Below, piece after piece: positions 6,611 through 24,928 of a DNA stretch of 64,000 nucleotides. Origin of the DNA: Rhizobium sp. Q54 (lineage in GTDB: Bacteria; Pseudomonadota; Alphaproteobacteria; Micropepsales; Micropepsaceae); the NCBI GenBank assembly GCA_945882615.1, contig CAMCWK010000005.1, forward strand, positions 1 through 64,000, read 5' to 3'. The notes under the pieces are model-generated. The model was not told the DNA's origin. It saw nothing but the letters and a program-made list of their open reading frames with translations, and did not search any database. Each line of letters starts with the position of its first letter. Position 1 is the stretch's first letter. Made by a program: the position numbers and the translations under genes.

Positions 6611-6719
6611 GTCGATCCCCTGTCCGGCCTTTGAAGGCCAACCCTAGCAGAAGAGTTGGGAACAAGAAGCTGGGAGAAATCGTCTTGAAACTGTCACACA
6701 ACTGAAATGTTTCTTGCGC

Positions 6720-7703: not shown

Positions 7704-7814
7704 TACTGGAACGCCTGCTGACGGCTGATGCCCACACATGACTGTGAGGCTGGTATGTGACCAACGCATCCATCTGGTACGTCTGCCTGCCGCGGACGCA
7801 AGTCTCCGCAATCG

Positions 7815-7847
7815 TATTCATAAAAATTTCACGCAGCTGTCATGGAG
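7815..7847 (+). promoter_or_regulatory. Putative PhoB box, distal, upstream of lipoprotein
   Basis: Three cores in exact 11-bp register: TTCAT at 7817, TTCAC at 7828 and GTCAT at 7839, within an AT-rich stretch. This fits tandem 11-bp PhoB half-sites. About 200 bp upstream of the lipoprotein start, on the same strand as that gene. Confidence 0.6.
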
Positions 7848-7902
7848 CGCGGATGATCGGCCGCGACCGGATGACGCGAGCGGAAATGTGCAAAGCGTCG
7901 GT

Positions 7903-7942
7903 GTTACATAAATTTGTCATACGACATTTGCAGACCTGTCAC
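7903..7942 (+). promoter_or_regulatory. Putative PhoB box, proximal, upstream of lipoprotein
   Basis: Cores TACAT (7905), GTCAT (7916) and GTCAC (7938) lie in 11-bp register; the unit at 7927 is degenerate. About 105 bp upstream of the lipoprotein ATG. Together with 7815-7847 it makes a double PhoB site, expected of a strongly phosphate-starvation-induced promoter. Confidence 0.68.
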
Positions 7943-8046
7943 GGTCTCCTCCTAAGAAGCGTCAAGGGCAGGCGGGGGTGAGGGCCGATATGGTCATCTG
8001 AATTTCCGCGTGCGCGCAATCATACAGCCACGGTGGGAGTTTTTTT

Positions 8047-9513
8047 ATGATCGGCCTGAAGAACCTGAAGAGCTTGTCCCTTGCTATATTCAGCGTGGTA
8101 GCGCTGGCCGCATGCTTCCCCGAAAAGGAACCGGCTTCTCCTGGCGAGGGCGCGTTCGCGCCGGGCACGAGCACCGGCACGGGAACAGCCACCGGTACGG
8201 GGACTGGCACCGGTACCGCTGCCGCGGATTGCCCCGCGGGTTTCACCAATGTTGGCATCGTGGCCGGCAATACGCTTCGCGCCTGCCAGCTGCCAGCAAA
8301 GATCACCGGCACCCTGGTAGTGCCGCGCCGTGCGGGCACGGTTTATGCCATCAGCGGCCGCGTCGATGTCGGTGATGATCGCGGTGCGGATCCCGCCGCT
8401 CCGATCGCTGGTCGTTTGCAAGGCGTGTTGAGCATCGAGCCCGGCGTCCGCCTGTTTGGTTCCGCCGGTCTGGACTATGTCGTGGTCAATCGCGGCTCGC
8501 GGATCCTGGCCGACGGCACGGCATTACTTCCCATCGTCTTCACCAGCCGCCAGAGCATTGACGGCACCGCCACGGCCGATTCCATCGGCCAGTGGGGCGG
8601 CCTGGTCGTTCTCGGCCGCGCCCCCATCAGCAACTGCTCCGCGCCTGGCGCCACGCCCGGTTCGGCGACCTGCGATGCCCAGGTCGAAGGTACCAGCGCC
8701 TTTTATGGCGGCAACAGCGCGGCGGACAATAGCGGCATCCTGCGCTATGTCCGCGTTCAGCACTCCGGTTTCCAGATCCTGCCCAACAATGAGCTGAACG
8801 GCATTACCCTGGCCGGCGTCGGCACCGGCACCGTGGTGGACTATGTCCAGGTCCACAACAGTTCGGATGACGGCATCGAATGGTTCGGTGGCACTGTCCA
8901 CTCCAAGCATCTGGTCCTGACCGGCGAGGATGACGACGGCCTGGATACCGATGTGGGCTTCAACGGCACCATGCAGTTCGTCATTGCTGTGCAGCGCGCT
9001 GGTGGCGGCGACCGCATCATCGAAGCATCGAGCGCCGGCACCGCGCCGCGCTCGGCCCCCAAGCTCAGCAACTTCACCTTTATCAGCCGGGCGGTTGCCG
9101 GCGCGGGGGATCCGCTCACGTTCAACTCCAGCACCGGTTACAACCTGTCCAATGGCATTGTGGTTGCCTCCGGCACGGCGGTGGCTTGCGTGGATATCGA
9201 TGCCGCCTCCACCTCCGCGACCTTCAATTCGGTGCGGCTGGCTTGTGGCACGCCTTTCCGCAACGATAGCGATGTGAATGGAGCGGCGACCCAGGCGTTC
9301 TTCGACGCGGGCACCAACAACAGCTCCACGCATGTCTCGACCCTGAGCGGAACCTTCATCAATGGCGCCAACGAAGCGGCGGTGCCGGCATTCAATGCCA
9401 CCACGGTCAGCGCAGCCTTCACTGCCACGACGTATATCGGCGCGGTGCGAGACGCGGCGGACACCTGGTATGCGGGCTGGACATGCGGCCTGCCCGGCGG
9501 AACCAGCTGCTGA
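8047..9513 (+). CDS. Beta-helix lipoprotein, likely phosphate-starvation surface/secreted protein
   Basis: 488-residue lipoprotein: signal peptide with lipobox LAAC (lipidated Cys23), a Gly-Thr low-complexity linker (about residues 38-56), then a Ser/Thr/Asn/Gly-rich domain with repeated short strands (GILRYVRVQHSG, TVVDYVQVHNSSDDGIEW, HLVLTGEDDDGLDT) typical of a right-handed beta-helix. The acidic DDGLDTD run could bind divalent cations. Double PhoB boxes lie upstream, a strong terminator follows, and a TonB receptor and a full T2SS come next. By analogy with Caulobacter ElpS (a phosphate-starvation extracellular lipoprotein exported by T2SS), this is a candidate T2SS substrate; that is inference. 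Confidence 0.75.
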   Translation: MIGLKNLKSLSLAIFSVVALAACFPEKEPASPGEGAFAPGTSTGTGTATGTGTGTGTAAADCPAGFTNVGIVAGNTLRACQLPAKITGTLVVPRRAGTVYAISGRVDVGDDRGADPAAPIAGRLQGVLSIEPGVRLFGSAGLDYVVVNRGSRILADGTALLPIVFTSRQSIDGTATADSIGQWGGLVVLGRAPISNCSAPGATPGSATCDAQVEGTSAFYGGNSAADNSGILRYVRVQHSGFQILPNNELNGITLAGVGTGTVVDYVQVHNSSDDGIEWFGGTVHSKHLVLTGEDDDGLDTDVGFNGTMQFVIAVQRAGGGDRIIEASSAGTAPRSAPKLSNFTFISRAVAGAGDPLTFNSSTGYNLSNGIVVASGTAVACVDIDAASTSATFNSVRLACGTPFRNDSDVNGAATQAFFDAGTNNSSTHVSTLSGTFINGANEAAVPAFNATTVSAAFTATTYIGAVRDAADTWYAGWTCGLPGGTSC

Positions 9514-9519
9514 TTAGTA

Positions 9520-9552
9520 CGGGGGTGGCGTGTGCCACCCCCGCCATTTTTT
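9520..9552 (+). terminator. Intrinsic terminator after the lipoprotein gene
   Basis: A 10-bp GC-rich stem CGGGGGTGGC / GCCACCCCCG with GTGT loop, followed within four bases by a run of six T. It sits between the lipoprotein and the TonB receptor 26 bp further on, so it probably lets the lipoprotein be made in excess of the receptor by partial termination. Confidence 0.88.
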
Positions 9553-9577
9553 GTCATCCCGATAAGGTTTCCGAACC

Positions 9578-12169
9578 ATGAAGAAGTTTCGCAAAGCCCT
9601 GCCAGCGCTGCTCCTTGCCAGCACCGGGCTCGTCGCACCGCACCTGGCCCTGGCGCAGGGCCCGCCGGCCATGGCGGTCGAAGAGGTTGTTGTCCGCGGT
9701 GTCCATATTCCCGATGTCATGCGGGAAACGTCTGAAGTCGCCAGCGTGCTGACCCGGGCAGACCTGGAGCGGGCGGGCGACAGCACGGCGGCCTCCGCCC
9801 TGACGCGTCTTTCCGGCATCAGCCTGATGAGCAACCGCTTCGTCTATGTCCGCGGCCTGGGCGAGCGCTATTCCTCTGCCCTCCTGAACGGCTCGCCGTT
9901 GCCCAGTCCGGAGCCCTTGCAGCGCGTCGTGCCGCTGGATCTGTTTCCGGCCAATATTCTGGCCAACACGGTGGTTCAAAAAACCTTCTCCGCCAGCATG
10001 CCGGGCGAGTTTGGCGGCGGCGTCATCAATCTGACCACCTTGGGCGTGCCGGAAGAACCATTTCTGACCCTTGGCGTCAGCACGGGCGGCAATACCCGCT
10101 CGACCTTCACCAACGGCCTGACCTATTACGGATCGGGCACAGACAGTTTCGGCTTCGACGACGGCAACCGCGATGTGCCCCCGGAACTGCGGGCGGCATG
10201 GGATGCGGGCAAGCGGGTGAGCGACGGAAACTTTTCCCAAACCGAGCTGCAGCAGATCGGCCGCAGTTTCGTAAATGCGCCGCTGAACCTTTTGCAGCGC
10301 CAGGAGGTAACGCCCGATTTTGGCGCCCAGTTCAGTGGTGGCCGCAGCTTTGAACTGGGTTGGGCCAAGCTCGGCGTCGTGCTGGTGGGCAGCTTTGACA
10401 GTGCCTGGCGCAGCCGCAAGGGCATCCAGCAGGAAGGCCTGCTGGTCGCCAACAATCTGAGGGTGAGCACGGACTATAATTTTGAGTCCAACCAGAATGA
10501 TATCGTGATGAACGGTCTGGGTTCTGTCGCCCTGGAATGGGACGATAACAAGGTGCAATGGACGAACTTCTTCGTTCGCTCCGTGCAGAAGGAAGCGCGC
10601 TCGCGGATTGGCTATGACGATCTGGCCGGTGCGGATGTTCGCGACGACTATACGGAGTATTTTGAACGCGAGTTGCTCAACACCCAGCTCACCGGCTCAC
10701 ATGCCTGGCAGCAGGTCGCCGTTGACTGGCGCGCGGCCTATGCCGATACCACGCGCAATGCACCCTATGAAAAGGGCATCCGCTACCGCCTGGTGAATAG
10801 CACCTACCGGCACAATGCCTCGCAGGAGCAGAATTATACCCGCTTCAGCCATGTCAGCGACACTATCGCCAGTGCCGGCGTCGATGTCGCTTACACCTTG
10901 CCGCTTTCCGAGGCGCGTGAGGCAGTCTTTAGCGCCGGTCTTGCCTATTCGGAAAACAAACGCGGCGCCGAGTCGCGCGAGTTTCGCTTCCTGGCCCTGA
11001 ACAGCTCGTTGCCCCTCGATGTGCAGACCGAGCGGGTGGACTATCTGCTGTCGGACTTCAACATGGACCCCAACCGGCTTGTGGTGCGTGAAACCACCGG
11101 CGCCGACGGCGCGGCGGCCTATCGCGGCAAGCTCAATGTGCGTGGCGGCTATTTCCAGGTCGATGCGGAAATACTGCCCTTCGTCCGTACCGCACTGGGC
11201 GTGCGTATCGAAGCGGCGACCCAGTCGGTCACCACGCTGGATCTGTTTGGTGGTCCGCCGCCCTTGACCCCCGCGCCGCTGCGCAACACCTATGTCCTGC
11301 CGACCGGCACGGTGACCTGGAATTTCGCGGAAGACTGGCAGGTGCGTGTTGGCGCCTCCCAGACCATCGCCCGTCCGCAGTTCCGCGAGCTGGCGCCGCA
11401 GCAGTATCTTGATCCGGACAGCGATCGCCTCTTTGTCGGCAATCCCTTCCTGGTTGACAGCAAGCTGTTGAACCTGGACGCCCGCGTGGAACGTTATCTT
11501 CCGGGCGGCGAGTTCTTCACCGCTGGCGTCTTCTACAAGGATATCGACAAGCCGGTGGAGTCCGTGGTGAACGAGGCGGGCGCGACGATCCAGCAGACCT
11601 ATATCAATGCACCCAAGGCCAACATCATGGGCGCCGAGCTTGAAGCCAAGAAATACTTCAACTTCGGCTGGACGCACGAGCACCTTGTCAACAAGAACTG
11701 GCTGTTGCAGGCGAACTATACCTACTCGAAATCGGAGGTGAAGGTTGGAGCAGGAGATGTGGTCTTCCCGCTGAGCTCTGCCGGTCAGCCGCGTCCGGCT
11801 CTTGAATATGTCAAGGACGGCAGCAAGCTGCAGGGTCAGTCCGAGCATCTGGTCAACGTTCAGTTCGGGTTCGAGGATGATGTCGCCAATTCTCATGCGA
11901 CGTTCCTCCTGACCTGGGTCAGCGACCGCATCACCGCAAGAGGCAGGCCGGGACAGCCCGACCTGGTTCAGAGCCCGGGCGTTACACTGGACTTCAACTA
12001 CCGCAAGGGGATCAGGGTCTGGGATGAGGAGTTCAACCTGGGCTTTGGCGCGCGGAATCTGCTCGACACCGACTTCAAGGAGTTCCAGGAGCAGGGCCCG
12101 AACATTGTTTACAACAACCGCTACACGACCGGGACCAGCTTCTCCCTCTCTTTGTCCAAAACGCTCTAA
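9578..12169 (+). CDS. TonB-dependent outer-membrane receptor
   Basis: 863-residue TonB-dependent receptor that would import a ligand across the outer membrane using TonB-ExbBD energy. Signal peptide ends ALAQ; a TonB-box-like VEEVVVRG follows; the plug (about 40-165) has VYVRGLGERYSSALLNG and FGGGVINLTT; the rest is an aromatic-rich 22-strand barrel ending with a terminal aromatic-alternating strand (SFSLSLSKTL), so the barrel appears complete. The ligand is unknown; its place in a phosphate-starvation block suggests a phosphorylated compound or a siderophore-like complex. It lies downstream of the lipoprotein terminator and is closed by its own terminator. Confidence 0.9.
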   Translation: MKKFRKALPALLLASTGLVAPHLALAQGPPAMAVEEVVVRGVHIPDVMRETSEVASVLTRADLERAGDSTAASALTRLSGISLMSNRFVYVRGLGERYSSALLNGSPLPSPEPLQRVVPLDLFPANILANTVVQKTFSASMPGEFGGGVINLTTLGVPEEPFLTLGVSTGGNTRSTFTNGLTYYGSGTDSFGFDDGNRDVPPELRAAWDAGKRVSDGNFSQTELQQIGRSFVNAPLNLLQRQEVTPDFGAQFSGGRSFELGWAKLGVVLVGSFDSAWRSRKGIQQEGLLVANNLRVSTDYNFESNQNDIVMNGLGSVALEWDDNKVQWTNFFVRSVQKEARSRIGYDDLAGADVRDDYTEYFERELLNTQLTGSHAWQQVAVDWRAAYADTTRNAPYEKGIRYRLVNSTYRHNASQEQNYTRFSHVSDTIASAGVDVAYTLPLSEAREAVFSAGLAYSENKRGAESREFRFLALNSSLPLDVQTERVDYLLSDFNMDPNRLVVRETTGADGAAAYRGKLNVRGGYFQVDAEILPFVRTALGVRIEAATQSVTTLDLFGGPPPLTPAPLRNTYVLPTGTVTWNFAEDWQVRVGASQTIARPQFRELAPQQYLDPDSDRLFVGNPFLVDSKLLNLDARVERYLPGGEFFTAGVFYKDIDKPVESVVNEAGATIQQTYINAPKANIMGAELEAKKYFNFGWTHEHLVNKNWLLQANYTYSKSEVKVGAGDVVFPLSSAGQPRPALEYVKDGSKLQGQSEHLVNVQFGFEDDVANSHATFLLTWVSDRITARGRPGQPDLVQSPGVTLDFNYRKGIRVWDEEFNLGFGARNLLDTDFKEFQEQGPNIVYNNRYTTGTSFSLSLSKTL

Positions 12170-12190
12170 AGTTTAACGCACAACCTTCTG

Positions 12191-12227
12191 AAGGGCGGCG
12201 ATCCAGCATCGCCGCCCTTTGCGTTTC
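12191..12227 (+). terminator. Intrinsic terminator after the TonB receptor
   Basis: Perfect 12-bp stem AAGGGCGGCGAT / ATCGCCGCCCTT with a 5-base loop (CCAGC), then a T-rich tail interrupted by GCG. It isolates the receptor transcript from the T2SS operon, whose PhoB box begins two bases later. Confidence 0.88.
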
Positions 12228-12228
12228 T

Positions 12229-12261
12229 CTGTCACACAACTGTAGCGAGACCGTCACAAAA
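12229..12261 (+). promoter_or_regulatory. Putative PhoB box of the T2SS operon
   Basis: Units begin CTGTCACACAA (12229) and CCGTCACAAAA (12251), 22 bp apart, with a degenerate 11-base unit between. The GTCAC cores are at 12231 and 12253. Placed 55-87 bp ahead of gspC with no other promoter-sized gap in the operon. Confidence 0.65.
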
Positions 12262-12315
12262 TGTTGCCGAGGTCAGGGGAAGGTGCCCCCGCATTGCACA
12301 CAAAAGGACGAAGCG

Positions 12316-13107
12316 TTGGCTCTCCGCTTGGACATATTTCGCTGGCCGGTGCCCTGGGCGACAGTGGCGGAATTCGCCTTGATCGCGGCGCTTGCCATAC
12401 AGGGCGTCCGCCTGATTTGGGCGCTGGTCACGCCGGCGGGCGCGATGGGCATGCCGCCACCGTCCCAGCCGCAGGCCAAGGCGGACTTTGCGGTGCTTTC
12501 CCGGGTTGATCCCTTTTTTCGCGGCCTGGACAGCGCTGGTGATGCGCGCGCATTCGCTGCCACCGGAATCTATACACTGTTCGGCATACGCACGGGCGCC
12601 GCCGGGCGCGGCTCGGCGATACTGGCGGGGCCCGACGGACGGCAAGAGGCGTATACGGTTGGACAGGCGATCGCGCCCGGCACGGTGCTGACCGCCGTCG
12701 GCGCTGATCACGCCATCGTGTCTCGCGCCGGCGTGCACATTCGTATCGCGTTCCAGCCCCCGTCTTCCTCGGGGGCGCCCAGTGTGCCAATCGCCCCCGC
12801 GGCACCCATCGCGGCTGCTGGCGGCGGCACGATAACGCCCAAGGCATTTCTGTCACAGACGGCCTTCCAGCCGCGCCTGCAGGACGGACAAGTGCTGGGC
12901 TACACCGTGTCGCCGCGGGATTCCGGCCTGGCCCTGCAACAGGCCGGACTGCAGGCGGGAGATGTGATCCGCACCATCAATGGATCCGCCCTGAGCCGTA
13001 ACCGGTTTGAGGAAATTGAGTCAGAGTTCAGCGGTTCCGATCAGGTCGAGCTTACCGTTGAACGTGGCGGGAAAATCATCACCAAGAATCTCCGGGTAGC
13101 ACAGTGA
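12316..13107 (+). CDS. gspC: T2SS inner-membrane protein GspC
   Basis: GspC links the inner-membrane platform to the secretin and helps select substrates. One TM helix (VAEFALIAALAIQGVRLIW) is followed by a homology region (VDPFFRG... TLFGIRTG...) and a C-terminal PDZ domain (VSPRDSGLALQQAGLQAGDV). I prefer the TTG start at 12316, which has AAGGAC at a 6-base spacing, over an in-frame GTG at 12283, whose purine run is too close. This gives about 263 residues, a normal size. First gene of the gspC-N run; it overlaps gspD by 4 bp. Confidence 0.88.
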   Translation: MALRLDIFRWPVPWATVAEFALIAALAIQGVRLIWALVTPAGAMGMPPPSQPQAKADFAVLSRVDPFFRGLDSAGDARAFAATGIYTLFGIRTGAAGRGSAILAGPDGRQEAYTVGQAIAPGTVLTAVGADHAIVSRAGVHIRIAFQPPSSSGAPSVPIAPAAPIAAAGGGTITPKAFLSQTAFQPRLQDGQVLGYTVSPRDSGLALQQAGLQAGDVIRTINGSALSRNRFEEIESEFSGSDQVELTVERGGKIITKNLRVAQ

Positions 13108-15191
13108 AGCGTGTAATTGCTTTCGTTCTGGTCCTGCTTCAGGTGATGCCCGTGATGGCGCAGAATGCGCCGGCACAGCAGGGACAAGTGCTGAATCTTC
13201 AGGACGCCGATATCCGCGTCTTCATTCAGGACGTGGCGCGTGCCACCGGCACGACCTTTATCATTGATCCCAAGGTGCAAGGCAAAGTCACAGTCACAAG
13301 CCAGCAGCCCTTGCAGCGGACGGAATTGCTGGATGTCCTGCTTTCGGCCTTGCGCGCCAACGGGCTGGTCGCCATACCCACCGCCTCCGGGGCTTACCGG
13401 GTTGCACCGGAGGAGGGCGCCGCCCAGTCCGCTGGCAGCCTGGGGGCGAGCGTCGGCGACGGCTTTTCCACCCAGGTCTTCCGGCTTCATACCCTGGATG
13501 CCCGCTCTGCGGCAGAAGCGCTCAAGCCCCTGATCGGACGGCAGGGCGTCGTTCTCCCCAGCAGCCGGGGCAATCTTCTTGTCATTGCTGATTACAGCGA
13601 CAATCTTCGCAGGATTCGCAACCTGCTGGCGGAAATCGACCGGGCTGGTGGCGTGACAGAGACCGTGACCTTGCGCGCCAGTTCCGCGCGTGAAATCGCC
13701 GAAGTCCTCAACACCCTTCTGAAAGGGCCCGGCGCCGATCTTCAGGCGCGCAACGGACTTGTCTCCATCATCGTGGTGGAAAGCAGCAACAGCATTATCC
13801 TGCGCGGGGAGGCGGAAGCGGTACGCCCGCTGCTGCCGATCATCGCGGACCTTGACCGCCGGGCCGAGGGCGCGGGCGATGTCAGAGTGGTCCAGCTTCA
13901 GCACGCGGATGCTACGCAGCTGGTGCCTGTGCTGCGGCAGCTGGTGGGCCAGAGCGCTGCGTCCACGCCTGCACCCGTCCCGACAAGAATTTCTTCTTCC
14001 ACCAGGGTCGGCATGAACCCGGGCACTGAGCCAGCTCCAACGGAACCCGTGCCCGCGCCTGTCTCCGGTGGTGAACAGCGCGCGAGCATCACGCGTTACC
14101 CCGGCGCCAATGCCATTGTGATCGCGGCATCGCCAGACACGCAGCACATGCTGGCGGAGGTCATCCGCAAGCTGGATGTGCGGCGCGAGCAGGTGCTGGT
14201 CGAAGCCATTGTCGTGGAAGTTTCCGATACCACGGCCAAGCGACTGGGTGTGCAGTTCGCCCTGGCGGGCCGCAACGCGTCTGGCGCGCCCTTCACCGCC
14301 ACCAACTATTCAAATGCACGGCCCAATCTGCCGGCCATTCTAGGTGCGGCGGTTGGACCGGACTATCTTCCGGAAGGGTCGACCCTCCAGGGGCTGCGCG
14401 ATGCCGCCGCCGCCTCGCTCCTCGGCGCCAACGGCCTCATCACCGGGGGCATCGGCCAGATCAATGGCGATACGCTCTTCACGTTTGTCATCAATGCCGT
14501 CAAAAGCGATACAAACTCAAACCTGCTGTCGACGCCGTCAATCATGACGCTCGACAATCAGGAAGCGACCATCCTGGTGGGGCAGAATGTTCCGATAACC
14601 ACCGGCGAAGTGCTTGGCACGGCGAACGTCAATCCCTTCCGCACCATCCAGCGGCAGGATGTAGGGATACAGCTCGACGTGAAGCCGCAGATCAATGCCG
14701 GCGGCACGGTCACGCTGTTCCTGCGCCAGGAAGTGTCCAGCGTGGCGGGGCCGGTCAGCGCGGCTTCGGCGGAACTGGTGCTCAATCGTCGACAGGTAGA
14801 GACCACCGTGAACGTCGATGACGGCGAGATCATCGTGTTGGGCGGGCTTCTGGACCAGAATGAACGGCTTTCCGTCGAGAAGACGCCGCTTCTGGGCGAG
14901 GTTCCGGTGCTGGGCGCGCTTTTCCGCAGCACCAGCCGGCAACGCGATCGCACCAACCTGATGATCTTTATCCGGCCGACCATCGTGCGAAGCGCGGCCG
15001 ACGCCCGCCGCGCAACAGCGCCAAAGTATGAATATATCGTCGGTCAGCAATCCAGCGGAAATCCGGACCGGCAGAGTCAGCTCGAAGAGCTTGTCCGCAA
15101 GTATCTGCGGGCCGAGCCGCCGCGTGTTCCCGCTGTGCCCCCGCTGCCAGCGGCTGCGGCACCGGCTTCTGCTCCGGCGAAACTGCAATGA
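13104..15191 (+). CDS. gspD: T2SS outer-membrane secretin GspD
   Basis: 695-residue secretin that forms the outer-membrane channel. Signal peptide ends PVMAQ; N0 to N3 domains (about 25-340: DADIRVFIQDVARATGTTF, then repeated NANAIV-type modules such as RYPGANAIVIAASPD), with a Pro-rich insert near 290-325; then the secretin domain with the classical ending (GEVPVLGALFRS... NLMIFIRPTIVR). A Pro/Ala-rich tail follows, where an S-domain for a pilotin might be; no pilotin gene is seen nearby. Overlaps gspC and gspE by 4 bp each. Confidence 0.95.
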   Translation: MKRVIAFVLVLLQVMPVMAQNAPAQQGQVLNLQDADIRVFIQDVARATGTTFIIDPKVQGKVTVTSQQPLQRTELLDVLLSALRANGLVAIPTASGAYRVAPEEGAAQSAGSLGASVGDGFSTQVFRLHTLDARSAAEALKPLIGRQGVVLPSSRGNLLVIADYSDNLRRIRNLLAEIDRAGGVTETVTLRASSAREIAEVLNTLLKGPGADLQARNGLVSIIVVESSNSIILRGEAEAVRPLLPIIADLDRRAEGAGDVRVVQLQHADATQLVPVLRQLVGQSAASTPAPVPTRISSSTRVGMNPGTEPAPTEPVPAPVSGGEQRASITRYPGANAIVIAASPDTQHMLAEVIRKLDVRREQVLVEAIVVEVSDTTAKRLGVQFALAGRNASGAPFTATNYSNARPNLPAILGAAVGPDYLPEGSTLQGLRDAAAASLLGANGLITGGIGQINGDTLFTFVINAVKSDTNSNLLSTPSIMTLDNQEATILVGQNVPITTGEVLGTANVNPFRTIQRQDVGIQLDVKPQINAGGTVTLFLRQEVSSVAGPVSAASAELVLNRRQVETTVNVDDGEIIVLGGLLDQNERLSVEKTPLLGEVPVLGALFRSTSRQRDRTNLMIFIRPTIVRSAADARRATAPKYEYIVGQQSSGNPDRQSQLEELVRKYLRAEPPRVPAVPPLPAAAAPASAPAKLQ

Positions 15192-17867: not shown

Positions 17868-17873
17868 AGAGAG

Positions 17874-18317
17874 ATGCCCATGCCCGTTCCTGCCCGTTTT
17901 CGCCGCGACGCCGGTTTTACCCTGGTGGAAGTCATGGTGGTGATTGTGATCATCGGCCTTCTGGCCACAGTCGTAATGATCAATGTCCTTCCCAGTCAGG
18001 ACCGCGCCATGCGCGAAAAGGCGCGCGCGGACATCTCGGTGCTGGAACAGGCCGTGGAGACCTTTCGCCTGGAAACGCTGCGCTTTCCGACGACAGAGGA
18101 AGGGTTGACGGCGCTGGTCCAGGCGCCCGCCGGCATGACGCGTCCGGATCGCTATCGCGATGGCGGCTACGTCCGCCGTCTGCCTCAGGATCCGTGGGGC
18201 AATCCTTATCAGTACGTCTTTCCCGGTCAGCATAGCCGGTTCGATGTCTATTCGTTCGGCGCGGATGGGGTGAAGGGCGGGGAGGGCGACAATGCCGATA
18301 TCGGCAACTGGAGCTAG
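17874..18317 (+). CDS. gspG: T2SS major pseudopilin GspG
   Basis: About 147-residue major pseudopilin. The prepilin cleavage site is AG|FTLVEVMVVIVIIGLLA with Phe+1 and Glu+5. The globular domain carries the family-typical FPTTEEGLTALVQAP and YRDGGYVRRLPQDPWGNPYQY and an Asp-rich calcium-binding end (GGEGDNADIGNW). Starts at 17874 or the ATG at 17880 are both possible; both give a very short leader. Overlaps gspH by 26 bp. Confidence 0.96.
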   Translation: MPMPVPARFRRDAGFTLVEVMVVIVIIGLLATVVMINVLPSQDRAMREKARADISVLEQAVETFRLETLRFPTTEEGLTALVQAPAGMTRPDRYRDGGYVRRLPQDPWGNPYQYVFPGQHSRFDVYSFGADGVKGGEGDNADIGNWS

Positions 18318-18759
18318 CGAGCAGGGTTTCACGCTCATCGAGATGATGGTGGTATTGCTGTTGGTGGGTCTGGCCAGCAGCATGGTGCTGCTCAATTTGC
18401 CATCGGGCGGCGCAAGACTTGCGGACGAAGCCGAACATCTGGCCGCGCGGATTCAGTACGCGCAGCAGGAAGCGGTGCTGACCAATCGCTCTGTCGAGAT
18501 TGTCCTGGCGGCAAATGACAGCAGCTTTCGGGTTCAGCGCCGGGGCCGCTGGGTGCCGCTGGTTGCAGGACCGTTCAAGCCCCGGCCTTGGGGCGAAGGA
18601 TTGTCCGTGTCACTGCCCGGCATTGCGGGGCGTCGGGCGGTTCGCTTCGATTCCAGCGGCGCCACCGATCCCGCGACCATTCGCATGACCGGCAGCGGAC
18701 GTTCGATAGACCTGATTATCAATCGTCAGGGCCGGGTGGAGATCCATGACCTCGTCTGA
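18292..18759 (+). CDS. gspH: T2SS minor pseudopilin GspH
   Basis: 155-residue minor pseudopilin, prepilin site EQG|FTLIEMMVVLLLVGLA with Glu+5, followed by the PulH-type ARIQYAQQEAVLTNRSVEIV segment. Part of the pseudopilus tip assembly. Its start lies 26 bp inside gspG, and its end overlaps gspI by 14 bp. Confidence 0.92.
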   Translation: MPISATGASEQGFTLIEMMVVLLLVGLASSMVLLNLPSGGARLADEAEHLAARIQYAQQEAVLTNRSVEIVLAANDSSFRVQRRGRWVPLVAGPFKPRPWGEGLSVSLPGIAGRRAVRFDSSGATDPATIRMTGSGRSIDLIINRQGRVEIHDLV

Positions 18760-19111
18760 ACGTGGTTTCACCGTTCTGGAAATGCTGGTGGCGATGGCCA
18801 TTCTCAGCCTGGGCGCGGTGGCTTTGCTCAATCTGGCGGGCGAGAACACGCGCACGGCCGCTGCTTTGCGTACGCGGCTGTTCGCCGGAATCGTGGCGGA
18901 CAATCGCGCCATTGAAGCCATAACAAGCACCAGACCGCCTTCCGTCGGCGCTGATAGCGGCGTCGAAACGGCCGGCGGGGAGGCGTGGCGCTGGACGCGG
19001 CGGGTCACGCGGGCTGCCGACAGCGATATCCTGCGTGTCACGGTTACGGTTTCGCCGCCCCAGAGCAACAGGACCGCCGGTGAAGTCGTGGTCTTCCGGG
19101 TGATGCGATGA
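18746..19111 (+). CDS. gspI: T2SS minor pseudopilin GspI
   Basis: 121-residue minor pseudopilin with prepilin site ERG|FTVLEMLVAMAILSLG and Glu+5. The short C-terminal domain includes the conserved region around FAGIVADNRAIEA. With GspJ and GspK it forms the tip trimer. ATGA overlap with gspJ. Confidence 0.92.
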   Translation: MTSSERGFTVLEMLVAMAILSLGAVALLNLAGENTRTAAALRTRLFAGIVADNRAIEAITSTRPPSVGADSGVETAGGEAWRWTRRVTRAADSDILRVTVTVSPPQSNRTAGEVVVFRVMR

Positions 19112-19695
19112 AGGGCTTCACCCTCGTTGAAATGATGCTGGCCCTGTTTATCTTTGGCCTGGTTTCCGCCGCTGGTGTCGCCGTGATGCGCTTCAGCATG
19201 GACAATCAGGAACGGGTCCGGGCCCACACCGGGCGCCTGGCGGAATTGCAGGGCGCGCGGGCGCTGCTGAAAGCGGACCTGGCCCAGGCCAGCACACGCC
19301 GGACCCGCGGCCTCGACGGGCGGCCCGATAATCGCGCCTTTTTCGGCAACGAACAGGCGAGTGGCGGCCCACTGTTGGCATTGGTTCGCCGTGGCGCGGA
19401 CAATCCCGACAACGAACCGCGCAGTTCCTTGCAGTATGTCGAGTATCGTCTGGCAAAGAATACGCTGGAGCGCCGCACCCGCGTCGGATTGGATGGCGGC
19501 TCATTCTATCCCTCCCAGCCGTTGCTCACGGGCATCCGCAGCGCCTCGCTGAAATTTCTGTGGCATGGGCAATGGATCGATACGCTCCCGCTGGGCGCGC
19601 ATGTAGACCTTCCCCAGGCCGTGCGGCTGGACTTGAACCTGACCGACTACGGAACTGTAACGCAGCTGCTTCTCGTGACGGGGTCTGCTTCGTGA
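19108..19695 (+). CDS. gspJ: T2SS minor pseudopilin GspJ
   Basis: 195-residue minor pseudopilin with an extremely short leader: MKG|FTLVEMMLALFIFGLVS, Glu+5. The body matches GspJ features (RGADNPDNEPRSSLQYVEYR and an LERRT strand). The end overlaps the GTG start of gspK. Confidence 0.92.
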   Translation: MKGFTLVEMMLALFIFGLVSAAGVAVMRFSMDNQERVRAHTGRLAELQGARALLKADLAQASTRRTRGLDGRPDNRAFFGNEQASGGPLLALVRRGADNPDNEPRSSLQYVEYRLAKNTLERRTRVGLDGGSFYPSQPLLTGIRSASLKFLWHGQWIDTLPLGAHVDLPQAVRLDLNLTDYGTVTQLLLVTGSAS

Positions 19696-20669
19696 GGCGC
19701 TGGGACGAAAAAGGTGCGGCCTTGATCACGGTGCTGCTTCTGGTGGCGGTGATGTCGGTGCTGGCGGTGGCGCTGCTTGACGATATCCGTTTTGGAATTC
19801 GCCGCGGTATGAACGCGGCCGAGAATGGTCAGGCGCAATGGTATGCGCTCGGCGCGGAGGCGCTGGCGCGAAGCCGGATCACCCGTCTTTCCAATGGCGG
19901 TGGCCACACCAGCCTTGCGGGAAACTGGCCCGGGCGCTTTGTCCAGTTCCCGGTCGAGGACGGACAGGTCGGCGTGCGCCTGGCCGATGGCGGCGCCTGC
20001 TTCAATCTCAACAGCGTGGTGGAAGGGGCCGGTGAGATGCTGCGCCGCCGGGATCGGGGCGCAGCGCAGTTCATGGCGTTGCTCATGGCCCTGGAGTTTG
20101 CCCCCCAGGACGCCGCCACGCTCACGGCCGCGCTAGTGGACTGGGCCGACAGTGATTCCTTGCGTGAGGCTGGCGGGGCGGAAGATGAAGCTTATAGAGA
20201 TTCTCCCGTCGGCTATCTCACCGGGGCCACGCTGCTTGCCGAGGCCAGCGAGCTTCGCGCTATCCACGGGTTCACCAACAGCGTCTACCGTCGCCTGCGT
20301 CCCCATGTTTGCGCGCTGCCCAGCACGGACATGACTATGATCAACGTCAACACCTTGCCGGTGACAAGCGCCGTTCTACTGACAGCCCTTACGGATGGCC
20401 GGTTGTCACCGGCCGATGCCGCCCGCTTGATCGCACAGCGTCCCGCCGGAGGCTGGCCGAGCGAAACGGCGTTCCGGGCAGAGCCCATTCTGGCTCCGCT
20501 CAGCGAAAGTGGTGGTCCCGGTGAACAGGTTTCCCTGCGTACCCGCTTCTTCCGGCTCGAAACGGACGTACGCCATGGCGATGCCGAAGCGCTTTCCAGC
20601 ACCCTGTTTGAAAGCGCCGGTCAGGGAGACGTAAGGCTCGTATCCAGGCGCTGGGGGGCCGAAGAATGA
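19692..20669 (+). CDS. gspK: T2SS minor pseudopilin GspK
   Basis: 325 residues from a GTG that overlaps the gspJ stop (GTGA). A longer open frame exists upstream but would run through gspJ. The pilin-like N-terminus EKG|AALITVLLLVAVMSV lacks Glu+5 (Thr instead), as is normal for GspK, which caps the tip. The large insert domain includes DWADSDSLREAGGAEDEAY, the calcium-site region typical of GspK. ATGA overlap with gspL. Confidence 0.93.
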   Translation: MRRWDEKGAALITVLLLVAVMSVLAVALLDDIRFGIRRGMNAAENGQAQWYALGAEALARSRITRLSNGGGHTSLAGNWPGRFVQFPVEDGQVGVRLADGGACFNLNSVVEGAGEMLRRRDRGAAQFMALLMALEFAPQDAATLTAALVDWADSDSLREAGGAEDEAYRDSPVGYLTGATLLAEASELRAIHGFTNSVYRRLRPHVCALPSTDMTMINVNTLPVTSAVLLTALTDGRLSPADAARLIAQRPAGGWPSETAFRAEPILAPLSESGGPGEQVSLRTRFFRLETDVRHGDAEALSSTLFESAGQGDVRLVSRRWGAEE

Positions 20670-21775
20670 AAGCTGCGCGCATTGTGATCTATCCATCAGA
20701 CCCCCAAAAGGCGCTGGTTTGCACGACCATCGGGGAGCCAGGCACGATGCCCGGCTGGCGCAAGCTGCACCCGGGCGATGCCAAGAGTTCGGACCTGTGG
20801 ACGGTGATGGTTGTGCCGGGCATTGAGGTGACAGCCCGCTGGCTGCATCTGCCGACGCGCAGCGAAAAGCAGGCGCTTGCCGCGGCACGCATGCAGATGG
20901 AAGATGAGCTGGCTCTGGGCGCGCAAGCGCTCCATCTGGCCTTGGGGCCTTTGGAGCAAGACGGGTTCCGGCTTGTCGTTTCTGTTTCGCGAGAACAGAT
21001 GCAAGTCTGGATCGATAGCGCGCGGCAGCATGGCCTGGAGCCTGATGTCCTCATTCCCGACCATCTAACCCTGCCTGAACCTGTCGATGGCCAAACCCTG
21101 GCGGCGCTGATGCCGGACTGGGTTGCGATCGTCCGCGGGCCGCGCCTGGCCTTCTGTTGTGACAGCGACCTGTTGCCTGTCCTTCTGAAGGACGTAGCGC
21201 CAACGACAGCCAGTCCGCCTCAGCTCGAGCGTATGATAACGCAAGGGGCTCTTACCCCGCCCGTCAACTTGCTGCAGGGGGAGTTCGCGGTGCGCCGCCG
21301 CGGGGGATTTTTGACCGGCAATCGGCTGCGCCTGGCTGTATTGGCCGGATTGCTATTGATAAGCCCGGTGCTGATACAAATTGGTCAGGCGGTCCACCTC
21401 CACATTTCCGCGGAGCGGTTGAAGGCGCAAAGCGCGGCCGCGGCGGCTTCCGTGCTGCCGGCGGGCGCGGCTGTTCAAAATCCGGTGCAGGCATTGCAGG
21501 ACCGGTTTCGGCAACTGGACCTGGCGGCCGGTGGTCCGGCGAGACGGATCGCGCGGCTGTTTTCAACCTTGGAGGCAGCGGGTGGCGTTCAAATCGAGAG
21601 CCTGACCGTGGCGTCCGATGGCGTGTTGCAAGCCTCGCTCCGCCATCCCATGGCGCAGGACATTGAAAAGCTTGGCGTCGCGCTGCGCGGAAATGGCATT
21701 GAGATGCGAAAAGTGTCTTCGCGAGACGAATCCGGCGTGATGGTCACGGACGTAGCGCTGGGAGGTAGCCCATGA
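20666..21775 (+). CDS. gspL: T2SS platform protein GspL
   Basis: 369-residue bitopic protein: cytoplasmic actin-like domain (about 1-215) that binds GspE, one TM helix (LRLAVLAGLLLISPVLIQIG, about 222-241) and a periplasmic ferredoxin-like domain. Sequence conservation in GspL is low; position between gspK and gspM and the topology carry the call. ATGA overlap with gspM. Confidence 0.88.
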   Translation: MKAARIVIYPSDPQKALVCTTIGEPGTMPGWRKLHPGDAKSSDLWTVMVVPGIEVTARWLHLPTRSEKQALAAARMQMEDELALGAQALHLALGPLEQDGFRLVVSVSREQMQVWIDSARQHGLEPDVLIPDHLTLPEPVDGQTLAALMPDWVAIVRGPRLAFCCDSDLLPVLLKDVAPTTASPPQLERMITQGALTPPVNLLQGEFAVRRRGGFLTGNRLRLAVLAGLLLISPVLIQIGQAVHLHISAERLKAQSAAAAASVLPAGAAVQNPVQALQDRFRQLDLAAGGPARRIARLFSTLEAAGGVQIESLTVASDGVLQASLRHPMAQDIEKLGVALRGNGIEMRKVSSRDESGVMVTDVALGGSP

Positions 21776-22242
21776 TCATCTGGTGGAACGGCCTGTCGCA
21801 GCGCGAACGCATTCTGGTGGGGCTGGGCGCAATCCTGATCGTGGCAACCATTTGCTGGTACGGAGTATGGCGGCCGGCCGTGTATTTCCACCAAGCGGCG
21901 GCATCCCGGCATGCCATGATTTTAAAGGAGAAACAGACAGTCCTGGCGCTCGTGGCACAGATACGCGCATTGGGACCGGCGCGGAAGATGCAAGGTTCCA
22001 GCAAGCCCCTGGCAGAGATTGTGCGTGATAGCCTGGGCACCGCCGGTATTACGCCGGGACGCATCGAACCCGACCCTCAGGGCGGGGTTCGTGTTGCCGC
22101 CAACGCTATTCCGTCGACGCAGCTGTTTCCCTGGATTGCCCAACTGCAAACCGAATATGGCATTTCGCTCCGGCACCTGATTGTGGTGAAAGCGGGTGAG
22201 GGCACGCTCAACCTTGACGCGACCTTGAGCGATGGGCGCTGA
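21772..22242 (+). CDS. gspM: T2SS platform protein GspM
   Basis: 156-residue bitopic protein with a short cytoplasmic tail (WWNGLSQRERILVGLGA), one TM helix (ILIVATICWYGVWRP) and a periplasmic domain. The N-terminal tail motif plus position after gspL identify GspM. The end overlaps gspN by 11 bp. Confidence 0.88.
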   Translation: MIIWWNGLSQRERILVGLGAILIVATICWYGVWRPAVYFHQAAASRHAMILKEKQTVLALVAQIRALGPARKMQGSSKPLAEIVRDSLGTAGITPGRIEPDPQGGVRVAANAIPSTQLFPWIAQLQTEYGISLRHLIVVKAGEGTLNLDATLSDGR

Positions 22243-22963
22243 TATGCAGTGGAAATGGCCCGTATTGGCAATGTTCCTGGTCGCGGTTCTGGCGGCGACC
22301 ATGCCCTTGCGGCTGGCGCTATCCTGGACGCAGGCGGACCGCTGGCTTTCCGCCGCAGATGTTGAGGGGACGATCTGGGGCGGCGTCTTGGAGGCTGGTT
22401 ATCTCGGCCACCTTTCGCTGGGCGATGCAAAAGTGGCGCTGGATATTCCCGCCCTTCTGTCAGGTCAAATGGGTTTTCGCTTCTCTGCGGCGGGCACGTT
22501 GCAAGGTGCCGGCACAGCCCTGCTGGGCCGAGACAGACGAGAGATCCGCGCCGAGAGCTTGCGGGTTCCCGTCCAGGCGCTTTCCCCCTCGCTGCCGTTG
22601 GAAGGTGAAATGCTGCTATCCGACATCGACGTTGCATTCCGTGACGGTACCTGCCGGGCAGCGCAGGGATCGGTTGTGGTCAAGCATGTGCGGCTGGCGC
22701 GCGGCAGTATCCCGCTTTCGTCCGACCTGGAATTGCGCGGAGCGCTCGGCTGTGCCGGTAACGACGTGATTGCCCGATTGGTGGGCCGGTCCGGCAGCAT
22801 CGCGATCCGCAGCACCATCCGCATTGGCGCTGACGGCGCCTATCGAATGGAAAATCGCATCCTGGGTTTGGGAGAAGCTGGCGATGCCATGGCCGCCGCG
22901 GCCGGCTTTGCGCCGGAGGCCGATGGCTATGCGCGTTTCGATCGGGGAAAGCTCGCCCTTTAA
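22232..22963 (+). CDS. gspN: T2SS protein GspN
   Basis: 243-residue protein with one N-terminal TM helix (WPVLAMFLVAVLAATMPLRLAL) followed by the GspN signature region (VEGTIWGGVLEAGYLGHLSLGDAKV style). GspN is an accessory, often dispensable, T2SS component. The start may be 22232 or the ATG at 22244. It is convergent with gspO, overlapping by 4 bp. Confidence 0.85.
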   Translation: MGADMQWKWPVLAMFLVAVLAATMPLRLALSWTQADRWLSAADVEGTIWGGVLEAGYLGHLSLGDAKVALDIPALLSGQMGFRFSAAGTLQGAGTALLGRDRREIRAESLRVPVQALSPSLPLEGEMLLSDIDVAFRDGTCRAAQGSVVVKHVRLARGSIPLSSDLELRGALGCAGNDVIARLVGRSGSIAIRSTIRIGADGAYRMENRILGLGEAGDAMAAAAGFAPEADGYARFDRGKLAL

Positions 22964-23625
22964 CCCGTCGCTTGGCGCAAAATGCCATCGAGTGGCCCGT
23001 AGAGCCAGGTGAGCCAAATTCCGATCGCCAAACCCACCCCAAAGGGAATGGGTTGCGCGCGTCCGACCGGCTTGCCACGCGCCGACATCAGGGCGACGAA
23101 GACGAGCCCGGCGCCCGCACCCAGCACAAGAATGGTTGGGAGACCCTGCCAGCCGGTCCATGCGCCGCCCCCCGCCAGAAGCCATGCATCTCCCCCGCCA
23201 AGACCGTCCTGTCCGCGCATTTTGCGATACGCAAACGCAAGCGCCGCCAGCAGAGCGAAGCCTATCGCGGCGCCCAGCGCATGCTCGTAAAAGCTCTGCA
23301 TGGATTGGGCGGCTATCGCTATCAGACCGCTTACAAGCAAGGTGATGGTCAAAGATCGCGGCAGCCAGAAATGCTCGAAATCCAGCAAGGCCAGCATCAG
23401 CAGCTGCCATCCCAGCAGGCTGCCCAGGACGGCCTTTGGACCAGGCCATGCCGATCCCGCCCATAGCGCCAAAGCCATACAGGCCAGAACCAAAACCAGC
23501 TTTCGCCGCAAGCTCTCGGGCCGAACAATGTCCGGCTTCGGCATTTTCAGTGATGCGCTGGATATGATCATCCCCACCGGAATGCTCAGCAGTACGCATA
23601 GCGTTATGAAAATCATGTCTGGCAT
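22960..23625 (-). CDS. gspO: Prepilin peptidase GspO, lacking the N-methylase domain
   Basis: 221-residue A24 aspartic prepilin peptidase. The catalytic Asp pair is Asp82 (LLDFEHFWLP) and Asp146 in the GxGD motif (LGGGDAWLL), within about seven TM helices. The usual N-terminal cytoplasmic methylase domain with its CxxC zinc motifs is absent, and the normally conserved GSFLNV signature is reduced to VGMIISSASL. It should cleave GspG-K leaders but may not methylate them, unless a second full-length enzyme exists elsewhere. Convergent with gspN and divergent from pstS. Confidence 0.85.
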   Translation of the reverse strand: MPDMIFITLCVLLSIPVGMIISSASLKMPKPDIVRPESLRRKLVLVLACMALALWAGSAWPGPKAVLGSLLGWQLLMLALLDFEHFWLPRSLTITLLVSGLIAIAAQSMQSFYEHALGAAIGFALLAALAFAYRKMRGQDGLGGGDAWLLAGGGAWTGWQGLPTILVLGAGAGLVFVALMSARGKPVGRAQPIPFGVGLAIGIWLTWLYGPLDGILRQATG

Positions 23626-23717
23626 GGTTCAGCCGACCAATCCGTCTAGGGGATACCTGCGATCCGACCAGCAAGAGTGCAAGCATTCCACAGGGCGAGG
23701 GTATGCGATCTCGATTC

Positions 23718-23735
23718 TGTTCATTGTGGTGTCAC
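23718..23735 (+). promoter_or_regulatory. Possible secondary PhoB half-site pair upstream of pstS
   Basis: Cores TTCAT (23720) and GTCAC (23731) are 11 bp apart; neighbouring units are not conserved. It may be an auxiliary PhoB site about 165 bp upstream of pstS. Weak by itself. Confidence 0.35.
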
Positions 23736-23794
23736 CGTGCAAAGCTGCTGGCGGCCTGTCACAACAGGTCATGGAAAATACTTTTAAAACAATG

Positions 23795-23838
23795 TGTTAT
23801 ATCGTAAGTCATATCACTGACACAGATCATTCACAAAA
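23795..23838 (+). promoter_or_regulatory. Putative PhoB box of pstS
   Basis: Cores GTCAT (23808), GACAC (23819) and TTCAC (23830) are in perfect 11-bp register, with a partial TTATA unit at 23797, in AT-rich DNA 59 bp before the pstS ATG. Best-matching PhoB box in the window, in front of the most classical Pho-regulon gene. Confidence 0.75.
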
Positions 23839-23896
23839 CTGGCGCGTTCCTCTGCCATGCCGCAGTGGACATGTCCGCTATGGGAAGACGCAAAAC

Positions 23897-24928
23897 ATGA
23901 AGATGTATAGCCGAGCTGCAATTGGAATGATTGCCGGTATCGCGTTGATCGCGACCTCGGCGGCGGCAGCCAACCTTACGGGTGCCGGCTCGACCTTTGT
24001 GTACCCGATCATTTCCAAATGGGCTGGGGCCTATAGGGATATTTCCGGCAATCGCATCAACTATCAGTCGATTGGCTCGGGTGGCGGTATTGCCCAGATA
24101 AAGGCCAGGACAGTCACCTTCGGTGCCACCGACAAGCCGCTGACAACCAAAGAGCTGAATGCGGCAGGTCTGACCCAGTTCCCGATTATCATCGGTTCCG
24201 TGGTGCCGGTGATCAACGTGCCGGGCATCAAGCCGGGCCAGATGGTGTTGGATGGCACAGCCTTGGCCAATATCTTCATGGGCAAGATAACCCGCTGGAA
24301 CGATCCTGCTCTTAAAAAACTTAATCCCAATCTGCCGCTGCCCAGCCGTGCCATAACCGTCGTGCATCGTTCGGATGGCTCGGGAACGACTTTCAACTTC
24401 GCCACATATTTGAGTCTCGTAAGCCCGCAATGGAAGGCCGATATCGGCGCGGATACCGCGATTGAGTGGCCCGTTGGCGTTGGCGCAAAGGGCAATGAAG
24501 GCGTAGCGGGAAATGTATCGCAATTCGTTGGATCGATTGGCTATGTCGAATATGCGTTCGCAAAACAGAATCGCCTCAGCCATGTGAAGCTGATCAACAG
24601 GGCTGGCCGGGCAGTCGAGCCTACGATCGACTCCATGCGTTCGGCGTCCGCGAATGCCGATTGGGCCAACGCGGCGAAGAACGATTTCTATATTCTCTTT
24701 CTGAACCAGCCCGGCGCCGCGTCTTGGCCCATCACCGCTACGGTCTTCGTCCTGGTCTATAAAAATCCCGCAGACAAGCAGGCGACCGCCGAGGCGCTGA
24801 AGTTCTTCAAATGGGGCATGGAAAAGGGCGACCAGCTCGCGATCGGTCTGGACTATGTGCCCATGCCCGAGAACGCGGTGAAAGCCGTGGAAGCGGGTTG
24901 GAAGCGTATCCAAGGTTCGGGAATGTAA
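23897..24928 (+). CDS. pstS: Phosphate-binding protein PstS, stand-alone
   Basis: 343-residue periplasmic or secreted phosphate-binding protein. Signal peptide ends SAAAANL; phosphate-site motifs follow: GAGSTF, SIGSGGGI, GATDKPL and HRSDGSGTTF. The ATG at 23897 is chosen because the signal peptide begins there; the frame is open further upstream but overlaps gspO antisense. No pstC, pstA, pstB or phoU follow, so it is separated from its ABC transporter. Next to a T2SS, and with a strong PhoB box, it may also be exported outside the cell, as reported for some Pseudomonas PstS-like proteins; that is inference. Confidence 0.93.
   Translation: MKMYSRAAIGMIAGIALIATSAAAANLTGAGSTFVYPIISKWAGAYRDISGNRINYQSIGSGGGIAQIKARTVTFGATDKPLTTKELNAAGLTQFPIIIGSVVPVINVPGIKPGQMVLDGTALANIFMGKITRWNDPALKKLNPNLPLPSRAITVVHRSDGSGTTFNFATYLSLVSPQWKADIGADTAIEWPVGVGAKGNEGVAGNVSQFVGSIGYVEYAFAKQNRLSHVKLINRAGRAVEPTIDSMRSASANADWANAAKNDFYILFLNQPGAASWPITATVFVLVYKNPADKQATAEALKFFKWGMEKGDQLAIGLDYVPMPENAVKAVEAGWKRIQGSGM

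Follow-up and report, generated by a model that had tools for sequence, protein, structure and literature searches.

In Caulobacter crescentus, elpS (cc0170), the gene of a lipoprotein, is followed by cc0171, the type II secretion system (T2SS) genes gspC-N (cc0172-cc0184) and a convergent gspO, an order published in 2010 with further cases in Hyphomonas neptunium, Sphingomonas alaskensis and Xanthomonas campestris (PMC2996285). ElpS is produced in phosphate starvation and anchored at the cell surface, where it arrives independently of the T2SS; its release is T2SS-dependent, probably proceeds via a secreted protease and probably involves a cleavage just N-terminal of Asn38 (PMC2996285). A 2024 study placed the Caulobacter T2SS within the PhoB regulon (PMC11208175). 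Here we describe a corresponding locus in the first 64,000 nucleotides of contig CAMCWK010000005.1 of Rhizobium sp. Q54 (assembly GCA_945882615.1, order Micropepsales), a stretch that we call the window, in which Pho-type repeat arrays stand in front of a lipoprotein gene, a gspC-N operon and a pstS gene.

Three looser precedents are known. Flavobacterium johnsoniae makes abundant, low-phosphate-induced exoproteins related to ElpS (FI, FII and FIII), of which FI and FII are clustered with TonB transporters and FII lies in a phoBR cluster; the Flavobacterium lipoproteins are 31-36% identical to that of Caulobacter (PMC8115612). In Pseudomonas fluorescens, the hxc cluster flanks the gene of the PstS relative Psp, a protein that low phosphate induces and that leaves the cell mainly through the Hxc system; hxcR itself was not regulated by phosphate limitation (PMC2225411). 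In Myxococcus xanthus, the TonB-dependent transporter Oar serves the secretion of the protein PopC (PMC6434023).

The locus (Table 1) contains, in this order, a lipoprotein gene, a TonB receptor gene, gspC-N and a convergent gspO, the same order as cc0170-cc0184, and the Caulobacter parallel drawn in an initial annotation of this DNA was thus borne out by synteny. In three Caulobacter loci (L162, L163 and L165) the lipoprotein is 63, 65 and 61% identical to ours, with the receptor, gspC, gspD and gspE in the same order; homology to ElpS itself is drawn through these genus relatives. Given the gene order published in 2010, together with the Flavobacterium and, loosely, the Psp/Hxc precedents, the locus belongs by its sequence to a known type and is a further case of the Caulobacter elpS/T2SS arrangement. 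Of the 17-kb combination that the initial annotation had singled out, only pstS goes beyond what was already published. We estimate a probability of about 0.8 that the locus serves phosphate starvation in the manner of Caulobacter elpS and its T2SS.

Table 1. Features of the locus, with positions in the window
Feature	Position	Strand	Description
Pho-box array A	7815-7843	+	3 units; first base 232 bp 5' of lipoprotein start codon; 17.9 bits two-unit, 23.7 three-unit (rank 1 of 1,038,600)
Pho-box array B	7903-7942	+	4 units; first base 144 bp 5' of lipoprotein start codon; 18.9 bits two-unit, 17.9 three-unit
ElpS-like lipoprotein	8047-9513	+	signal peptide, lipobox LAAC (Cys23), SPGEG motif, low-complexity Thr-Gly tether, right-handed beta-helix domain (model)
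Terminator-like hairpin, lipoprotein/receptor gap	9520-9543	+	10 pairs, 9 GC, T-rich tail; kept in G070 and G075 (alignment)
TonB-dependent receptor	9578-12169	+	PF07715 plug and PF00593 barrel; no Pho box in front
Terminator-like hairpin, receptor/gspC gap	12189-12221	+	14 pairs, 8 GC
Pho-box array C	12229-12257	+	3 units; first base 54 bp 5' of gspC; 15.9 bits two-unit, 17.1 three-unit
T2SS operon gspC,D,E,F,G,H,I,J,K,L,M,N	12283-22963	+	Pfam above curated cut-off for 12/12 proteins
gspO prepilin peptidase	22960-23625	-	PF01478 2.4e-18; convergent with gspN
Pho-box array D	23806-23834	+	3 units; first base 91 bp 5' of pstS; 17.0 bits two-unit, 17.3 three-unit
Second pstS of the genome	23897-24928	+	canonical phosphate-binding protein; TIGR00975 361.6 bits, cut-off 205

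Four Pho-type arrays in front of three predicted transcription units

The four 11-bp-periodic cores reported in the initial annotation are all present, as arrays of three to four units. A strict pattern (TGTCAYNNNNNTKTCAY) matched once in the 2.85-Mb genome and not at all in the window and was too stringent for judgement; matrices were therefore applied to stretches of the genome instead. The PhoB matrix was built from 13 Escherichia coli MG1655 Pho boxes (loci L097-L104), a selection from 40 matches guided by the textbook boxes, and the genome's own sites were left unused; it superseded a 40-site matrix from E. coli promoters, fitted by expectation maximisation (EM), that had drifted towards A+T. 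The two-unit scan covered 120 kb of the genome and the three-unit scan (11-bp spacing) 520 kb, about 18% of it, both on both strands.

In the three-unit scan, arrays A-D ranked 1, 4, 6 and 7 of 1,038,600 positions, rank 2 being the site 5' of the genome's own phoU-phoB and ranks 3, 5 and 8 further sites of the window, at 6680, 4292 and 6691. Their two-unit ranks were 2, 4, 5 and 6, with rank 1 taken by a site at the end of phoR, 5' of phoU-phoB. As a control we used 20 stretches of the same genome, 400 kb in total, in which the best three-unit score was 15.1, compared with 17.1-23.7 for the four arrays. Two-unit sites of at least 10, 12 and 14 bits numbered 45, 13 and 6 in the control and 21, 12 and 7 in the 64-kb window. 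At 15.8 bits, a threshold placed just below the weakest of the four sites (15.9), one control site stood against five in the window (arrays A-D and 6691-6708). The initial annotation had called for a PhoB-matrix scan and would have abandoned its proposal had such sites been equally dense at random loci, which they are not: the four arrays are real and clearly above chance expectation. Tandem 7-bp units every 11 bp thus precede the lipoprotein gene, gspC and pstS.

The receptor gene differs. No Pho box was found in the 70 bp in front of it (best scores in the gap 1.3, 2.9 and 2.9 bits in three genomes, the first being that of the window). A search of 17.5 kb gave 20 terminator-like hairpins, compared with 14.2 in shuffled sequence; the two of the locus rank first among them, and one of these stands in the gap before the receptor gene. 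The boxless gap and the hairpin do not support the membership of the receptor in the PhoB regulon that was originally claimed, and the locus consists of three Pho-type units and a receptor unit.

The genome holds the matching regulators and transporter. One protein was scored as a true PhoB, the only match above the cut-off (352.6 bits, cut-off 296.2), and a phoR-phoU-phoB cluster lies on contig C31 (phoR and phoU identified by reading translations of open reading frames, ORFs). On contig C8, no pstS precedes pstC, pstA and pstB, of which pstB and pstC scored above cut-off and pstA was identified by reading. The genome has two PstS matches; the one outside the locus is encoded on contig C18, behind a phosphate-selective porin. 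A de novo motif search of 30 pstC promoters of the order (L037-L066, one without upstream DNA) recovered a three-unit array, CTGTCACAAAA-GCTTTGCAAAA-CTGTGATG, which by EM fit is conserved in about 70% of the promoters. With its TTTGC unit, it is a version of the Pho array belonging to this lineage; array B of the window has a similar third unit, CATTTGC, which resembles the GCTTTGC unit of these promoters.

Half-sites within the OmpR family look alike, and 11 sequences in the genome match the PhoB model over nearly its full length (about positions 3-225), one of them interrupted by an internal stop, so that the repeats could be read as belonging to a different OmpR-family regulator that binds 11-bp direct repeats. 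We consider this highly improbable: the matrix, trained on E. coli PhoB sites, ranks the site 5' of phoU-phoB in the top two, four 11-bp units can also be seen by eye 5' of the porin-pstS operon on C18 (three-unit score 12.5), and a related three-unit array recurs in the pstC promoters of the order. Together with the controls and the conservation described below, the arrays and the presence of a true PhoB argue for PhoB-type control of the lipoprotein gene, the gsp operon and pstS, as the initial annotation had predicted.

Further Pho-type sites were seen in the window. An array at 6680-6719 (+) matches arrays A-D in strength (18.9 bits two-unit; it holds the sites of three-unit ranks 3 and 8), and was rejected as a fifth site of the module since the corresponding region of the relative G070 lacks it and since it is located on the 3' side of a divergent gene (6720-7811, -). 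This gene, upstream of the lipoprotein gene, has no Pfam or NCBIfam match and is found beside the lipoprotein gene also in G070 (82%), G075 (56%) and, weakly, G078; it is conceivable that it encodes a regulator of the locus. A three-unit array at 4292-4320 (+; 17.5) lies 5' of a TPR protein gene, with 29/29 bases identical in the G070 locus (L159), and a pstC-promoter-like site at 4842-4864 (+) lies 74 bp 5' of a histidine kinase gene (4938-6152), the search pattern for the latter having been devised after the sighting and not constituting independent evidence. The Pho-type neighbourhood may start as early as 4.3 kb. A 15.3-bit site at 44980-44997 (-) lies 114 bp 5' of an ORF without Pfam match (44162-44866, -), and the sole control site above 15.8 bits (17.7; L119:12236-12264, contig C9 of the same genome) abuts the start of a fatty-acid desaturase-like ORF, where it possibly marks a phosphate-responsive lipid change. 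Near the start of the window there is a gene of the phage-integrase family (410-1429, +).

Recurrence of the locus and its arrays

Among 96 genomes of the order, this one (G000) included, the lipoprotein was found in six: G000, G070, G075, G006, G004 and G078. A seventh candidate, G074, matched over only 43 residues at E 4.8e-4 and was left out. The gsp genes lie beside the lipoprotein gene in five of the six, and G078 has only the lipoprotein and the receptor. The best same-strand Pho scores 5' of the lipoprotein gene were 18.9 (G000), 15.0 (G070), 10.6 (G075), 10.6 (G006), 14.2 (G004) and 15.1 bits (G078), the G070 value belonging to array A and the site at the position of array B being weaker in G070 (12.7) and G075 (10.6) than in G000. 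In front of gspC, G000 (15.9 bits), G070 (19.6) and G075 (16.4) carry the stronger sites, and the array of the linked pstS recurs in G070 (19.2 bits, compared with 17.0 in G000). A contig from a Caenibius metagenome-assembled genome (MAG; L160) carries a locus whose identities to the window equal those found for L159, from the Erken alphaproteobacterial MAG, and either bin may therefore be contaminated.

A scan of a collection of species genomes returned at least 439 confirmed relatives, of which 80 were kept; the locus counts rest on these 80, which are related by descent, in some cases nearly identical, and counted unweighted. They include Caulobacter, Phenylobacterium, Brevundimonas, Asticcacaulis, many Sphingomonadales, Xanthomonas, Luteimonas, Pseudoxanthomonas and a Steroidobacteraceae MAG. 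Where the sequence extends 3 kb downstream (74 loci), a receptor relative lies directly 3' of the lipoprotein gene in 72; where it extends 9 kb (64 loci), gspD lies downstream in 39, and upstream in 5 of the remaining 25. A Pho box of at least 12 bits precedes the lipoprotein gene in 29/76 loci, compared with 1.05% of random windows of the same loci and 2.6% of dinucleotide shuffles, and precedes gspC in 21/42 loci, compared with 1.7% of shuffles. Three-unit scores of at least 12 were reached 5' of the lipoprotein gene in 30/76 and 5' of gspC in 18/42 loci, compared with 0.8% of 1,442 random windows. In Caulobacterales and Sphingomonadales the boxes stand before the lipoprotein gene, the secretion operon or both, and in Xanthomonadales mainly before gspC (Luteimonas L183 18.0 and L170 16.6 bits; Xanthomonas L173 14.9, L175 14.0 and L176 14.0).

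Two loci combine the lipoprotein-receptor pair with phosphate-uptake genes. In a Pseudoxanthomonas MAG (L178:9638-20585) a run of pstS, two permease genes, an ATPase gene of the ABC type and phoU takes the place of a T2SS behind the pair; it begins after about 1.9 kb, where a single ORF was searched against Pfam and gave no match. In a Lysobacterales MAG (L185), pstS lies shortly 3' of the pair.

These distributions bear on the possibility that the arrays are real and that independent Pho genes came to be neighbours in the block partly by chance, each unit working alone and the PstS copy having landed by the locus. Among the four testable module-bearing genomes, pstS adjoins the locus in two, G000 and G070; in G075 the 2.3 kb next to gspO contained none, nor did a stretch of about 13 kb past gspN in G006, and the contig of G004 stops inside the locus. 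Terminator-like hairpins separate the units, the pair occurs without gsp genes in G078, and gspD was not seen downstream in the 25 of 64 loci mentioned above. Against this, lipoprotein, receptor and a GspD scoring above 550 bits occur together in exactly five of the 96 genomes, the same five that have gsp genes beside the lipoprotein, and that class of GspD occurs in no other of the 96; moreover, the same gene order recurs in distant orders. For the block as a whole we regard chance neighbourhood as possible and clearly the less probable reading, and for pstS alone as likely.

Lipoprotein, receptor, secretion system and linked PstS

The initial annotation had claimed a whole T2SS, and gspC-N are indeed complete by Pfam; with gspO, which it had not mentioned, the core set C-N plus O is complete, all with matches above cut-off. 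Six Gsp proteins were also run against NCBIfam: GspD (572.1, cut-off 351.35), GspE (658.6, cut-off 630.25) and GspL (166.9, cut-off 65) scored above, GspC (49.1, cut-off 101.6) scored below, and GspM and GspN had no match. The GspD of the window is the sole GspD match in the genome.

The lipoprotein had no match in Pfam or NCBIfam, and a search of solved structures by sequence gave none at E<=1 (for the receptor, none at E<=0.001). Its AlphaFold2 model (mean predicted local distance difference test score, pLDDT, 86.2; residues 1-55 below 50) is that of a right-handed beta-helix. With VIA-align 2 it aligned to a phage tailspike with Z 23.1 and a root-mean-square deviation of 3.1 over 277 residues and to a mannuronan epimerase with Z about 22; the aligned beta-helix proteins (Z up to 23.1) are mostly polysaccharide-active, and the alignment supports the predicted fold and not an activity. 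The invariant acidic residues D274, D275, E278, D296, D300 and D302 lie near one another along the sequence. Having no Pfam match and being modelled as a beta-helix, the lipoprotein is not recognisable as the SusD-family partner of a SusCD-type pair.

In 72 of the 76 loci with a full N-terminus (of 80), the lipid-modified Cys is followed after 6-8 residues by an SPGEG-type motif, exactly SPGEG in 59; two more lipoproteins carry the variants SPGIG and DPGAG, giving 74/76, and a variable low-complexity tether follows. The motif is kept in 28 loci in which no gspD was seen in the available flank. The two motif-less loci, L210 and L211, are also the two of 74 without a receptor by tblastn with that of the window, a search that may miss a more distant receptor; their sequences appear closely related, so that the joint absence of motif and receptor possibly reflects one event. 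Across the stretches of the genome itself and the 80 loci, the motif gave 72 matches, at most one per source, the sole match in this genome being the present lipoprotein and the other 71 not individually assigned. Among the open-access papers listed, judged by title and start of abstract, none described the motif, subscription papers being outside the coverage. A speculative and rather doubtful reading is that the motif serves as an address for the TonB receptor, which would dock the lipoprotein or even carry it through the outer membrane, in the way that Oar serves PopC, with a T2SS-exported protease only freeing it; this would account for the arrival of ElpS at the surface without the T2SS.

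The linked PstS is a canonical one by PRK10918 as well (380.7, cut-off 339), and its PDB matches are phosphate-binding PstS chains. In a 33-row tree, a subset of the PstS proteins of the order, the linked proteins of G000 and G070 form a pair that is sister to the C18 PstS of G000 (100/99). From this sister position, the linked PstS is, at the level of sequence, an ordinary duplicate of the lineage. DING proteins carry an N-terminal signature, and the residues around the likely signal cleavage of the linked PstS, ANLTGAGSTFVYP, do not show it.

The initial annotation had proposed a complete starvation module in which the T2SS exports the lipoprotein and perhaps the adjacent PstS, and the receptor recovers the product. 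An exported PstS would scavenge phosphate outside the cell as Psp/DING does in P. fluorescens. The position of pstS directly behind gspO with its own Pho array in G000 and G070 is what such a module would show, and there is a precedent for PstS export, if a distant one and the only one, in the low-phosphate-induced Psp, secreted mainly by Hxc (PMC2225411). We nevertheless think this quite unlikely. In Caulobacter, ElpS is displayed on the surface even when the T2SS is missing and depends on that system for its release (PMC2996285), so the lipoprotein is no simple T2SS cargo; the PstS is canonical, sister to the C18 copy, matched by PstS chains and devoid of a DING N-terminus; and neither G075 nor G006 has pstS within the distances given above. 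The proposed completeness of the module is likewise not supported, no gene of the block having matched a phosphatase family.

Proposed function and relation to described systems

We therefore return to the phosphate-starvation locus of the elpS/T2SS type as our best explanation, which builds on the gene content, the arrays, their excess over the controls, conservation and synteny, and on the predicted fold; induction, surface location and T2SS-dependent release are taken by analogy from the Caulobacter papers. In low phosphate, PhoR-PhoB, encoded on contig C31, would bind the 11-bp arrays and turn on three separate transcription units, namely the ElpS-like lipoprotein with its two arrays, the gspC-N operon and the extra PstS. 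With two arrays and its own terminator, the lipoprotein would probably be made in excess. Once lipidated, it would reach the cell surface independently of the T2SS and stand next to its partner TonB receptor, held by a flexible tether. There the beta-helix may bind or process a phosphorus-bearing glycan or polymer, and we infer that the receptor would import the product. The T2SS would export hydrolases encoded elsewhere, including a protease able to cut the tether and free the lipoprotein, and the extra PstS would presumably increase periplasmic phosphate capture for the PstCAB transporter.

Several observations weigh against this explanation. In G075 and G006 the opposite strand 5' of the lipoprotein gene outscores the same strand (14.9 vs 10.6 and 11.6 vs 10.6 bits), and in front of gspC, G006 and G004 carry weak sites (8.0 and 7.1 bits). 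Among the wider set, no box reaches 12 bits 5' of the lipoprotein gene in 47/76 loci, which means either that the control is not universal or that the E. coli matrix misses sites; the reverse strand is also enriched (9/76 lipoprotein upstreams at 12 bits or more); and among Xanthomonadales only Luteimonas L182 reaches 12 bits 5' of the lipoprotein gene (12.8), Xanthomonas scoring 5.6-10.0. Phosphatases were rejected as cargo candidates: searches of the genome for PhoX and PhoD gave neither, the single PhoA-type phosphatase has no Pho box on its own strand (best 2.9 bits), and phytase-like matches stayed below cut-off. Foldseek with the lipoprotein model gave no match at E<=0.001. In Caulobacter, cc0171 is constitutive (data not shown in the paper) and gspE and gspL were only 1.7-fold up in poor medium (PMC2996285), so that PhoB control of the T2SS there rests on the 2024 transcriptome.

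From the recurrence of the boxes it seems that the elpS/T2SS locus is under phosphate control not in Caulobacter alone, which predicts such control for T2SSs without a known signal. Among the open-access papers listed, judged by title and start of abstract, none reported Pho boxes at the lipoprotein gene and gspC beyond Caulobacter or Pho control of the Xanthomonas or Sphingomonas T2SS, subscription papers lying outside this coverage. The role of ElpS is likewise narrowed, to a tethered predicted beta-helix that has the receptor as its neighbour (72/74) more often than the T2SS (39/64).

Among the described systems, Oar/PopC is a precedent of role; PopC is a secreted protease and no ElpS relative. 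Psp/Hxc shares a PstS-family gene beside a T2SS and, for Psp, induction by low phosphate; it differs in that Psp is a DING-type exoprotein, whereas the PstS here is canonical, and the available part of the report mentions no ElpS or TonB receptor (PMC2225411). The FI and FII clusters of Flavobacterium share low-phosphate ElpS relatives clustered with TonB transporters, whereas no T2SS is named in the FI, FII and FIII clusters in the available part of that paper (PMC8115612). The Caulobacter elpS locus is alike in gene order including the convergent gspO, in a lipobox lipoprotein (LAGC in ElpS according to the available text of PMC2996285, LAAC here), in the receptor as second gene and in the phosphate control, predicted here, of lipoprotein and T2SS; the present locus differs from it by an extra pstS with its own Pho array after gspO.

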